From Succinivibrio sp. (GTDB lineage: Bacteria > Pseudomonadota > Gammaproteobacteria > Enterobacterales > Succinivibrionaceae), in the NCBI GenBank assembly GCA_017959135.1, contig JAGDBH010000054.1, forward strand, positions 1 through 12,514: a stretch of 12,514 nt of DNA. Reading direction: 5' to 3'. Below are positions 7,089-9,567 of this stretch, one piece after another. Numbering within the stretch: position 1 is the stretch's first letter; every line of letters begins with the position of its first letter. Under the pieces are notes generated by a model. It saw only the letters and a program-made list of their open reading frames with translations. It was not told the origin of the DNA and did no database searches. The position numbers were made by a program, and so were the translations under genes.

Positions 7089-8186
7089 TTATGAACGACT
7101 CTTTTTAGAATTCTTAGATAGCTCTAAAGCTGCCTTTTCTTTCTCAGTCAGTTCTTTTTTCTTCTCATCTTTTTTCTTTTCGTCATTAGTCTTCTTTACA
7201 GGATCTTTCTTAATGGTAGGCTTGCTGCCATTCTCTGTTTCGATCTTGTCTCTAACAGATGGTAAAGCTTTATCAGGATTGGTTCCAAGACTCTGACCCT
7301 TGTCTGCTGACAGGGTAGCAACCTGACCGCCTGCATTTTCTTTCTGCATCTCGTCATATTTCTGATTTACATCGACCCCTTTCTTTTTGTTGTCTTCGTA
7401 ATCATCGATAGAGATAATCAGCAGGCCATCCTTGTCTGCTCGTTTCTGAACATTGTTTCTAGATACATCAACAACTGCGATATCTGTCAGCAGGTTTCTG
7501 CCGATCAGCAGGGCAAACTGCATCTGAGTTCTGTCAATCAGGTTGAATTCAGCCTCGGTTGAATAGTCACCGATTTTGATATTCAGTTTAACAACTGAAC
7601 GGTAGCTGTAACCGTCAATTGAAGACTGTCTTAATCTGGTCTGTTTTACATAAGGAGCTTCAACATTGATAGTACGGTCGTTGTGAACAATATTAAAACG
7701 AAGCCACTTCTTTCCGTTTCGTTCAAATTCAACAACATCTGAGGCGCTGATGGAAGACTGGGAAGCACCGGTATCGATACGTGCATCGATGGTTGCATTT
7801 GCTTCCTTTACATAAACATATTCTTTCTGACCTAAAATCATCTTTCCGTCAGGAGTCTGCAGATTATAGTTGCGCAGAGGTTTAATCATCTTTCCTCCAA
7901 GGCTTTCGCGTTCTGCAAGAATAGCATCGTATACATACTGATTCTGTCTCTGTACTGATTTTAGTTCTTCTAAAACCTGTCTGTGCAGTTTGAGATTAGC
8001 ATTCTCAATTTCTGATTTGAGACCGCTTAGGGTAGCTCTCTGAGAATTTAACTCTCCATTGATGCTGTCAATGGTTCCATTAAGTTTGGTGAATTTGTCA
8101 TTGATATCTTCATCTGAAGATGCTGCCATAGCAGACTGGCATACAAAAAAAACGGCAGTGGCTAGTATTTTTGCATTAAGACGCAT
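7089..8186 (-). CDS. Retropepsin-like aspartic protease family protein with signal peptide
   Basis: The 365-residue product has a signal peptide (residues 1-21, cleavage after AMA), placing it in the periplasm. Residues about 28-85 are polar and heptad-like, suggesting a coiled coil. Then comes a retropepsin-type fold: A-IDARIDTGASQSSISA at 132-147 contains the DTGA catalytic aspartate motif (Asp138), and LLIGRNLL at 227-234 is the matching distal strand. This family (RimB-like; often labelled ATP-dependent zinc protease) is seen beside RimK-like ligases. The C-terminal part from about 250 is low complexity and ends in a highly lysine/glutamate-rich stretch (about 325-365). I start at the ATG at 8186 because it opens the signal peptide and has GGA eight bases upstream; a GTG at 8243 would put 19 residues in front of it. 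As first gene of the operon it probably cleaves or reads peptides whose modification involves the two downstream products; that is inference. Confidence 0.85.
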   Translation of the reverse strand: MRLNAKILATAVFFVCQSAMAASSDEDINDKFTKLNGTIDSINGELNSQRATLSGLKSEIENANLKLHRQVLEELKSVQRQNQYVYDAILAERESLGGKMIKPLRNYNLQTPDGKMILGQKEYVYVKEANATIDARIDTGASQSSISASDVVEFERNGKKWLRFNIVHNDRTINVEAPYVKQTRLRQSSIDGYSYRSVVKLNIKIGDYSTEAEFNLIDRTQMQFALLIGRNLLTDIAVVDVSRNNVQKRADKDGLLIISIDDYEDNKKKGVDVNQKYDEMQKENAGGQVATLSADKGQSLGTNPDKALPSVRDKIETENGSKPTIKKDPVKKTNDEKKKDEKKKELTEKEKAALELSKNSKKSRS

Positions 8187-8235: not shown

Positions 8236-8372
8236 CAAATCACAGATGGCGATTAAGCATCGGCCAAAATTATTTAAAATAATTTAGTTGATTTTTTCTT
8301 TTTTTTTGCTTGTTTGATTGTTCGGGATTTTCATTGTAAATATGTTGACTTAGATCTCGATTAGTTACAAAT

Positions 8373-8391
8373 GATAATAATAATTATTACT
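8373..8391. promoter_or_regulatory. Fur-box-like AT-rich palindrome
   Basis: GATAATAATAATTATTACT matches the classical 19-bp Fur consensus (GATAATGATAATCATTATC) at 15 of 19 positions by my count. It lies 94 bases before the start of the glycyl-radical mini-gene, in an AT-rich spacer (8187-8484) that also holds long T-runs at about 8291-8308. Such a match can arise by chance in DNA this AT-rich. No -10/-35 pair for the mini-gene was convincing; TTGAAA at 8397-8402 with TAATAT or TATATA near 8420-8428 is the best candidate. Confidence 0.3.
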
Positions 8392-8484
8392 AATAATTGA
8401 AAACTGATTTTCTTTTAATTAATATATAGATAGGTTATTTCCAAAATGTTGTGAAGATTGTCTATTTATTAATAAGGTGTATTT

Positions 8485-8664
8485 ATGAATAATCAGATGA
8501 ACGTAAGTCGTTTAAGACCGGATCATACAGGCTGTATCGGAACAGGTGTTCCTTTTCAGAGAATAAGACGTGTAACAGGTTATCTGGTCGGTACTCTGGA
8601 CAGATTCAATGACGGTAAAAGAGCAGAGGAGTCTCAGAGAGTAAAGCATCTCCATGTATCCTAA
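8485..8664 (+). CDS. Mini-protein resembling the C-terminal glycyl-radical segment of NrdD
   Basis: A 59-residue protein matching the extreme C-terminus of class III (anaerobic) ribonucleoside-triphosphate reductases. RVTGYLVG at 29-36 corresponds to the glycyl-radical loop (RVCGYLG in T4 NrdD), with Gly32 the expected radical site. RFNDGKRAE (40-48) and RVKH (52-55) correspond to the conserved R-FN-GK-E...RVKH tail of NrdD. The rest of the enzyme is absent: no finger-loop cysteines, no nucleotide or effector domains, and the four-Cys zinc site that normally precedes the loop is missing (one Cys only, Cys17). The ATG is supported by AAGG seven bases upstream; a second in-frame Met is residue 5. 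Upstream DNA is AT-rich spacer without NrdD coding similarity, so this looks like a real small gene rather than the end of a broken one. By analogy with YfiD/GrcA, which replaces the damaged C-terminus of pyruvate formate-lyase, it may be a spare part or activase target for NrdD. That role is inference. Confidence 0.72.
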   Translation: MNNQMNVSRLRPDHTGCIGTGVPFQRIRRVTGYLVGTLDRFNDGKRAEESQRVKHLHVS

Positions 8665-8681
8665 GTTTTCTGAACTAATAT

Positions 8682-8757
8682 AGGGCCTTGATTTTTCCTA
8701 TTGAAATTGTGACCTTTGCTCATATAATAGGAAAAAAATCTTGAATATTAAGGTCCT
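8682..8757. repeat. Imperfect inverted repeat enclosing the porin-like gene promoter
   Basis: The outer arms are AGGGCCTT (8682-8689) and AAGGTCCT (8750-8757), complementary with one G-T pair. The inner arms are GATTTTTCCTAT (8690-8701) and ATAGGAAAAAAATC (8727-8740), complementary with two extra A residues; nine unpaired bases (8741-8749) sit between the right-hand arms. The right outer arm contains the Shine-Dalgarno of the downstream gene. GACCTT at 8711-8716 could instead pair with AAGGTC at 8750-8755, so two exclusive folds are possible in RNA. Confidence 0.6.
8701..8728 (+). promoter_or_regulatory. Sigma-70 promoter of the outer-membrane protein gene
   Basis: TTGAAA (8701-8706, 5 of 6 to the -35 consensus) and TATAAT (8723-8728, perfect -10) are separated by 16 bases. 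Transcription should start near 8735, giving a short leader of about 29 bases with AAGG at 8750-8753, ten bases before the ATG. This is the strongest promoter seen in the window. Confidence 0.75.
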
Positions 8758-8763
8758 AATGTT

Positions 8764-9567
8764 ATGAAAAAATTATCTCTCCTATTTTTAGGTGTTGCTC
8801 TTTCCTTAAATGCATCTGCAGCATGGCAGATTACTCCATACGGTTATTTCTCATCAAAGGCTGATGTAAAAGGCACTTCAAACAAGGCTTCATACTCTGT
8901 TTACGGTTTTGATGCCAAGAGTGAGCACTTTGGCTTTGGTTACAAGAGAACCTCATATGATTTTGACAGAAAAGCTGGATTTGATGATCTTAACCTGATC
9001 TATGGTTCTGTTAACTATGCTGATTCTCTAGTTGGCAATCTTGGCTATGCCGTTGGTACCTACCTGTCATTCGGTTTTGAGGATGAAATCAAGGTAGCAA
9101 AGAGCTATGATTTGATTCCAACCGCAGCTTTAACCTATGATTTTGAAAACGACTGGTCAATGATTGCTGGTGCCGGTGTTTCTTTCAACAAGGCTAATAA
9201 TTTCGGATTCGGTATTATCGGTCTTAAGTACAGAAATCCATCAGATATGGGCTTATCTGCATCAATCGCATACCCAAGAACTATGGTTAACTACAGATTT
9301 ACCGAGGTATTTGCTGTAGGTGCTGATGCCGGTGCTATCCGTGATGGTCACTACTATCTGGATAACTCAAAGACTTACGCTTATGAGAAGGGCTATGAGG
9401 CTAACCTATATGCTCTGATTACTCCAATCAGCCAGTTATCAATCAAGGCTGGTGTTGGCTACAATATCGACAGACAGATTAAGTTCTATGAGAACAGAAC
9501 TTATGTTGGCAAGATGAAGTTTGAAAACGAAACCAACTTCTTTGTTAACGGTTCTCTATCTTTCTAA
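8764..9567 (+). CDS. Predicted outer-membrane beta-barrel protein
   Basis: The 267-residue product has a classical signal peptide (KK at 2-3, hydrophobic 4-14, cleavage after ASA at about 19). The mature part of about 248 residues consists of alternating polar/aromatic strands, rich in Tyr, Phe and Gly and without cysteine, and ends in NGSLSF; the C-terminal Phe is the usual signal for the BAM assembly machinery. By eye there are 10 to 12 strands separated by short turns, such as those near residues 39-41, 70-74 and 143-146. It is smaller than general trimeric porins. It could belong to a small uncharacterised barrel family (DUF6268-like is possible) rather than OmpA or OmpW, but I cannot assign it. 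A near-consensus promoter and a strongly biased codon choice suggest high expression. It starts 99 bases after the glycyl-radical mini-gene and is convergent with the antiporter gene. Confidence 0.82.
   Translation: MKKLSLLFLGVALSLNASAAWQITPYGYFSSKADVKGTSNKASYSVYGFDAKSEHFGFGYKRTSYDFDRKAGFDDLNLIYGSVNYADSLVGNLGYAVGTYLSFGFEDEIKVAKSYDLIPTAALTYDFENDWSMIAGAGVSFNKANNFGFGIIGLKYRNPSDMGLSASIAYPRTMVNYRFTEVFAVGADAGAIRDGHYYLDNSKTYAYEKGYEANLYALITPISQLSIKAGVGYNIDRQIKFYENRTYVGKMKFENETNFFVNGSLSF

Follow-up and report, generated by a model that had tools for sequence, protein, structure and literature searches.

In the genus Succinivibrio, the anaerobic ribonucleotide reductase NrdD is, as judged from its genes, split: the radical loop and the C-terminal tail are carried by a separate, small polypeptide. 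A stand-alone copy of the gene for such a polypeptide, of 59 amino acids, lies at positions 8485..8664 (+ strand) of the window, by which we mean the whole 12,514-nucleotide stretch of DNA analysed here, one contig of a 1.79 Mb draft genome (G000, 87% complete). Class III ribonucleotide reductases (RNRs) are a source of DNA precursors without oxygen, and glycyl-radical enzymes are prone to cleavage by oxygen at the radical glycine. The data suggest a class III RNR whose radical subunit is detached and would work like the GrcA family while standing outside it.

The mini-gene of the window

Translation, profile matches, orthologues and dN/dS values all identify the window product as a detached NrdD glycyl-radical protein. 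It matches the Pfam family NRDD (PF13597) at positions 526-562 of 562, with an E value of 9.2e-8 and above the curated cut-off; the Pfam scan gave, besides this, one sub-threshold chance match. Among NCBIfam models it matches the ends of those for NrdD, the best being NF005497 (PRK07111; positions 710-744 of 746, E 2.7e-11), a full-length model under whose cut-off the mini-protein scores, as expected. No match to PF01228 or to the GrcA model was listed at E values up to 1. In an alignment of 17 family members, the window protein included, the R.TGYL loop, the RFN..K..E segment and RVKH were invariant.

The predicted radical glycine is Gly32, in the motif RVTGY (codon at 8578..8580, + strand). 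When the family profile is aligned with PDB chains, it falls on the radical glycine of Prevotella copri NrdD (8p23, chain residue 715), which would correspond to Gly711 in the available text of PMC11226230, provided that the chain has four additional residues. The preliminary description, made from the letters only, had proposed a stand-alone NrdD glycyl-radical protein with its own ribosome-binding site, and both points were borne out: a Shine-Dalgarno sequence, AAGGTG, is present at 8474..8479 (+ strand), 5 nt upstream of the ATG, and AAGGT is retained in four orthologues.

Codon comparisons indicate that the window mini-gene is under strong purifying selection. Over a 37-codon core, pairwise dN/dS with the four closest orthologues was 0.054 (G003), 0.048 (G009), 0.020 (G010) and 0.020 (G014), synonymous sites being near saturation for the last two. 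A chance ORF or a pseudogene is ruled out by these values (0.020-0.054); moreover, the frame, the neighbours and the promoter region are conserved in relatives, so that the window ORF is no chance ORF. None of the outcomes named beforehand as counting against the gene was seen in the tests: its frame is conserved, NrdD is present in the genome, and dN/dS is far under one.

Upstream and divergent lies a Zn_protease gene (PF05618, retropepsin-like; 7089..8186, - strand), a conserved neighbour that marks the window-type copy in ten genomes and itself adjoins 7TM-transglutaminase and ATP-grasp genes. Downstream is another conserved neighbour, a gene for an outer-membrane-like protein (8764..9567, + strand) without Pfam match. 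Neither neighbour is thought to have a part in the mechanism. A long hairpin between the mini-gene and the downstream gene (8676..8764, + strand; -27.9 kcal/mol, z -4.6, as good in 1 of 200 shuffles) is a possible 3' end; no classical terminator-like site was called 3' of the mini-gene. Neither nrdD nor nrdG was seen among the ten window proteins scanned, in keeping with the original remark that the mini-gene sits away from them; both are on another contig, C75, of the same genome.

The split NrdD operon

The NrdD body of G000 (contig C75, locus L036) is 754 amino acids long and ends ...CPRCGRKDGEGVSIERLRKLGVGCICTG, then stop. It is followed after 63 nt by a 52-codon mini-gene with its own Shine-Dalgarno sequence, encoding MQTRLHARNGIVGEGVKFERIRRVTGYLVGTLDRFNDGKKAEERDRVKHMHV, and next by nrdG, which runs off the contig end. 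Direct translation shows three in-frame stops, the body's own included, between body and mini-gene. The 52-residue protein is 69% identical to that of the window. With such a mini-gene already present in the operon, behind the NrdD body and ahead of nrdG, the window gene counts as a second copy of the subunit. Mini-genes were found in 16 of the 19 genomes of the genus, 14 of these 16 having two or three copies.

The body scores 1024 bits against NF005497 and retains the ATP-cone, the cysteine of MGCR (aligned with 8p23) and the four zinc cysteines of a complete zinc ribbon. Placed on 8p23, the body (residues 5-705) and the mini-protein profile (708-739) tile without overlap. Taken together they have, by sequence, the ATP-cone, the ten-stranded barrel and the catalytic finger-loop MGCR of a class III RNR; the zinc site and the radical glycine loop, which that class has in one chain, are here on two polypeptides. 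The same residues are thus spanned in P. copri NrdD (8p23; ATP-cone included) and phage T4 NrdD (1h78), whose glycyl-radical domain, unlike that of Succinivibrio, is the C-terminus of one chain. Two earlier statements hold in part. The zinc-site cysteines, described as lost, are indeed absent from the mini-protein but are kept by the other polypeptide, and the nrdD and nrdG expected in the genome are both there, but the only nrdD detected is split instead of full-length.

Twenty nrdD loci were picked from family members whose NRDD match ends near model position 532. A body and a separate mini-gene, with Shine-Dalgarno sequence and ATG, were present in all 20, one body being only a contig-cut piece. 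The bodies terminate 22-23 residues past the zinc ribbon, and the gaps to the mini-gene range from 18 to 133 nt, in all three frame relations. The nrdG motif comes next in 18 of the 20, and the copy at L084 passes TIGR02491. Programmed frameshifting or read-through is excluded by the size of the gaps, the mixed frames and the three in-frame stops in G000.

Within the genus, an NrdD body was detected in 14 of 19 genomes and was split in all 14; it was not found in the other five (59-89% complete). The large subunit of class I/II RNRs (PF02867) gave no match in 13 of the 14 split-body genomes, including single-contig G014 and G009; the sole one with a match was G013. Because the body is always split and PF02867 is absent from 13 of 14 genomes, the detached subunit must work, unless an unrecognised RNR exists. 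It is apparently obligatory in the genus, and this natural two-part form raises directly the question of whether the radical domain works in trans.

Another reductase with a divided chain is known from Pseudomonas aeruginosa. It is of class II, depends on cobalamin, and its division is not known to isolate a protein radical. It, too, is called split in the available part of PMC4520616. In the CC0, CC BY and CC BY-SA literature, as far as its accessible text extends, we came upon neither a split NrdD nor a spare part for this enzyme (among others PMC11528403, PMC9531940, PMC4390871, PMC8683613, PMC12288474, PMC2864759, PMC9669993, PMC11226230, PMC12338860, PMC3019208 and PMC1524935).

Predicted control of the stand-alone copy

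A 19-base palindrome resembling operators of the Fur/PerR family, AATGATAATAATAATTATT, lies at 8370..8388, 115 nt upstream of the start codon, and is kept in orthologues of the window copy within an otherwise drifting upstream region. We examined 19 stand-alone copies, 15 from the genus and four from other genera of the family, leaving out L062 (G007), where the motif scan saw no mini-gene. The box was present in ten of the 19, with a score reached by at most 7 of 200 order-1 random samples, and all ten boxed copies (ten genomes) adjoin the same Zn_protease gene. At L061 (51%) and L304 (41%) the adjacent gene is a relative of this Zn_protease gene, and neither copy has the box; it was also absent from four further stand-alone loci besides L304. 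A boxed copy was not found in 6 of the 16 genus genomes with mini-genes.

Genome-wide searches with the box pattern gave mixed results. With the strict pattern, G009 gave two sites, one upstream of ahpC and the other upstream of a BOF/YgiW-like gene (PF04076 match just under the cut-off). G014 gave a single site, again upstream of this BOF gene, and G000 gave none, a total of 3 in the three genomes versus 5 for the reversed control. With two mismatches allowed, and palindromes counted on both strands, the hits numbered 10 versus 6 for the control in G000, 9 versus 8 in G014, 18 versus 9 in G003 and 19 versus 9 in G009, thus barely above control in two of the four genomes.

A position weight matrix (PWM) was built solely from the ten mini-gene sites. 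On ahpC upstream regions from six genomes, the best score was reached by 0-1 of 300 samples in five and by 12 of 300 in the sixth, the set including the diverged ahpC of G013 and G015; on those of the BOF/YgiW-like gene it was reached by 0 of 300 in three of three genomes. Both genes were first found via the box pattern in G009, so that the evidence from G009 is circular. The ahpC site of G009 agrees at 18 of 19 bases with the mini-gene sites of G001 and G012, differing only at the centre. The plain Fur consensus was unremarkable on the ahpC sites (reached by 15 to 94 of 500 samples). A PWM score of at least 14 occurs at 16 places in 213,672 bases of genus loci, training sites included. The gene ahpC was detected in 6 of 19 genomes and not found in G000 or G014; the BOF/YgiW-like gene, for a secreted protein, is a candidate member of the same regulon. 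A similar box was observed 112 nt upstream of the latter in L197, L200 and L206, which stand for three genomes. Of the nrdD upstream regions, 2 of 12 reached 2 of 300 or fewer under the PWM; their scores were low, so that the operon copy is not obviously co-regulated.

The stronger of the two Fur-family proteins of G000 has Bacillus subtilis PerR (2fe3, E 8.6e-19) as its best PDB match and PerR as its best NCBIfam match, at 105 bits, below the cut-off of 180. It resembles B. subtilis PerR more closely than Fur and carries Asp at a position where Fur has Glu. No box was found before the PerR-like gene of G000 itself. Taken together, control of the window-type gene by peroxide via a PerR-like regulator is likely, as far as predicted sites and homology can tell, but it is the weak link of the overall reading. 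FNR was considered as a regulator of the stand-alone copies and rejected, the FNR-like sites upstream being inconsistent, with one perfect site, at L056. Two side observations concern the same elements: in two genomes some 11 kb separate the PerR-like gene from the mini-gene of the window type (G009:C32:10505 and 21845; G014:C1:174536 and 162918), and a box conserved between G000 and G009 (L199:193-211, L214:1501-1519) precedes a peptidase-like ORF by about 665 nt.

On the whole we think it fairly probable that Succinivibrio has a two-part class III RNR and that the window gene is a PerR-induced second supply of its disposable radical subunit. The enzyme would consist, besides the activase, of two polypeptides. 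One, the body, has the ATP-cone, the zinc ribbon and the barrel that holds the catalytic cysteine; the other, a protein of about 6 kDa, would bear the glycyl radical and dock where the C-terminal tail of an ordinary NrdD lies. Once the small protein is docked, NrdG would form the radical on it, and from there the radical would pass to the cysteine of the body. Under oxygen or peroxide, the PerR-like regulator would induce the window gene as a second source of subunits, and those cleaved at the radical glycine could be replaced without remaking the large body. Such a two-part RNR is an accessible system for radical docking and transfer.

It is unlikely, though worth keeping in view, that the window gene is a gene-dosage or isoform duplicate with no link to oxygen, perhaps serving under iron limitation if the box is that of Fur and not of PerR. 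The window box does agree at 16 of 18 positions with a Fur palindrome, nine of the 19 stand-alone copies and five further ones are without a clear box, and the strict search gave no excess over its control. Against such a duplicate speak the similar boxes before ahpC and the BOF/YgiW-like gene, as well as the PerR-like character of the stronger Fur-family protein.

Relatives in other bacteria and in viruses

Short homologues of the mini-protein proved widespread, as had been anticipated. In a scan of named genome contigs, the best 80 of 586 relatives were analysed. Short ORFs hold 60 of these 80 matches, one of them (L159) being a contig-cut full-length protein. By motif scan, body and mini-gene occur together at 32 of the 80 loci. 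Another 20 encode a full NrdD or have the tail within a long ORF, and the remaining 28 show a mini-gene but no body in the sequence available, which can stop at a contig end; for one of the 28, L087, a later scan found the body.

The preliminary description had likened the window protein to YfiD/GrcA, that is, to a stand-alone spare part that rescues NrdD after oxygen has cleaved its built-in tail. The predicted peroxide-type operator would fit a rescue subunit, and the layout it calls for, an intact NrdD plus a lone mini-protein, is real elsewhere: among 18 genomes chosen for a lone mini-protein, 14 have a full-length NrdD (one of these genes carries an internal TAG), three only tail-less bodies and one no body. 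In G000, however, an intact NrdD was not found, and the NrdD detected has no built-in tail to lose, which makes this role distinctly unlikely for the window gene.

Examples of an intact NrdD with a lone protein include Ruminococcus flavefaciens FD-1 and Sporobacter termitidis. Lone proteins beside an intact NrdD have an N-terminal extension of about 50 residues (ten aligned), for which no Pfam match was obtained in the two proteins tested; this long form occurs in 11 of 51 genomes of the R. flavefaciens family. The closest NrdD counterpart to YfiD is this lone form of about 90 residues with its conserved extension (L098:2607-2870, L129:5848-6108 and L111:5845-6114), which Ruminococcus flavefaciens and Sporobacter have in addition to a separately encoded intact NrdD.

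The likeness of the Succinivibrio protein to YfiD/GrcA of Escherichia coli and to Y06I of phage T4 extends to several traits: a small, free protein with a glycyl-radical loop, a separate gene, occurrence on phages and a proposed logic of oxygen damage; like GrcA, moreover, the mini-protein is without a catalytic barrel. It differs from YfiD/GrcA in belonging to the NRDD family, not to Gly_radical/GrcA, and in having a tail-less partner. With a partner NrdD that ends before the tail, the small protein has the look of an obligatory subunit more than of a repair part. In the accessible text of PMC8683613, spare parts are validated for pyruvate formate-lyase (PFL) only and considered possible for other glycyl-radical enzymes; the mini-protein is a real candidate for the non-PFL spare part raised there as a possibility.

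Split bodies of several Clostridia and of Mailhella have C-termini that resemble decayed radical tails, which is what would be expected if a spare part took over. Body C-termini with apparent tail remnants were noted at L100, L112, L119, L139, L105 and L141, several of them keeping GY. A quick tree was made of 94 NrdD cores, 49 from full and 45 from split enzymes, after thinning of an initial 110; 32 more loci lacked a usable core. On this tree the state switches between split and full at least 8 times, and the AU test rejects one split clade, and with it a common origin of all split NrdDs (p 0.00016, with long-branch caveats). The split NrdDs of the Succinivibrionaceae form one clade on the Bacillota side of the tree. 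Elsewhere in that family, other genera retain an E. coli-type enzyme with its tail, so the split form probably came in by acquisition. One genome, G050, has both a full E. coli-type NrdD and a second, split one (L074:320-4761), with other ORFs between body and mini-gene, perhaps on a mobile element.

A row of body, gene of about 60 codons and nrdG is also found in Cupriavidus necator H16 (plasmid pHG1), Bradyrhizobium, Azospira and Sulfuricurvum, where the small gene is named nrdD or annotated as reductase. The split NrdDs at L075:137-2433, L076:2289-5365, L077, L078 and L079, with tails like RVMGYHRPV, are of the Pseudomonas type. This arrangement, seen in several proteobacteria, is apparently an independent case, and the NrdD of C. 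necator, unlike that of Succinivibrio, is of a distant type (PRK08270). RefSeq annotates nrdD of pHG1 in two pieces, and it calls comparable small genes nrdD in some proteobacteria, so the surmise that such short proteins may be filed under the NrdD name was correct. The two-part form also implies that short 'nrdD' entries can be real subunits and that the tail-less NrdD proteins matching them are not necessarily truncated. NrdDG is said to be needed for complete denitrification in C. necator H16 (PMC2864759, available text, citing Siedow 1999); taken with the split nrdD, this speaks for in vivo activity of a split enzyme.

Stand-alone and operon copies differ by an N-terminal cysteine. It is present in 15 of the 19 stand-alone copies and in all ten of those with the box (Cys17 in the window copy, at 8533-8535), versus none of the 20 operon mini-proteins, and in 12 of 73 viral ones. 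This difference means that the two kinds are not identical parts. Many NrdD bodies end in CxC, and any redox connection of these cysteines with that of the mini-protein would be conjecture. The cysteine is also what might point to a decoy or regulator that titrates NrdG or fills the NrdD groove, thereby shutting the enzyme down. Because the protein retains the radical glycine together with the motifs found in the tail of a full-length NrdD, under strong purifying selection, this is highly improbable, and the early suggestion of a decoy for the activase, or a regulator, found no positive evidence in its favour.

Among viral sequences (IMG/VR), 80 of 452 relatives were analysed (L220-L299): 69 loci have a mini-gene without body or full NrdD, six a full NrdD, and five were unclassified. 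Of the 37 larger viral records searched whole, some of which may be fragments, 35 have a single NRDD match, the mini-gene, and two also a split body. Many viruses of anaerobes thus carry the radical part.

A throw-away 6 kDa RNR radical subunit, its PerR-controlled refill, the phage copies and repeated loss of the NrdD tail might all belong together, a joint reading to which we give not quite even credence. The phage copies would then keep dNTP synthesis going in anaerobic hosts, and the intact NrdD plus spare of Clostridia would represent the prior state, from which the tail was lost and the spare became essential several times.

On three of the four viral contigs scanned, the mini-gene has tail-fibre, integrase, endolysin or reverse-transcriptase genes as neighbours; no such phage genes were seen on the fourth, L225 (two proteins scanned). 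Among the stand-alone copies of the genus, L066 gave a match of unknown function for one of four proteins scanned, and L057:4851-5060 (G002) is part of a prophage that also has genes for integrase, reverse transcriptase and tail proteins. That the window gene is a relic or prophage cargo persisting by chance, as this genus copy (at least one is in a prophage) and the many viral contigs with such genes might suggest, is scarcely credible, for the window copy stands among non-phage genes, with conserved synteny in ten genomes, a box of its own and dN/dS of about 0.05 or below. The lone NrdD mini-genes of viruses parallel Y06I of phage T4, which serves pyruvate formate-lyase (PMC8683613, available text).
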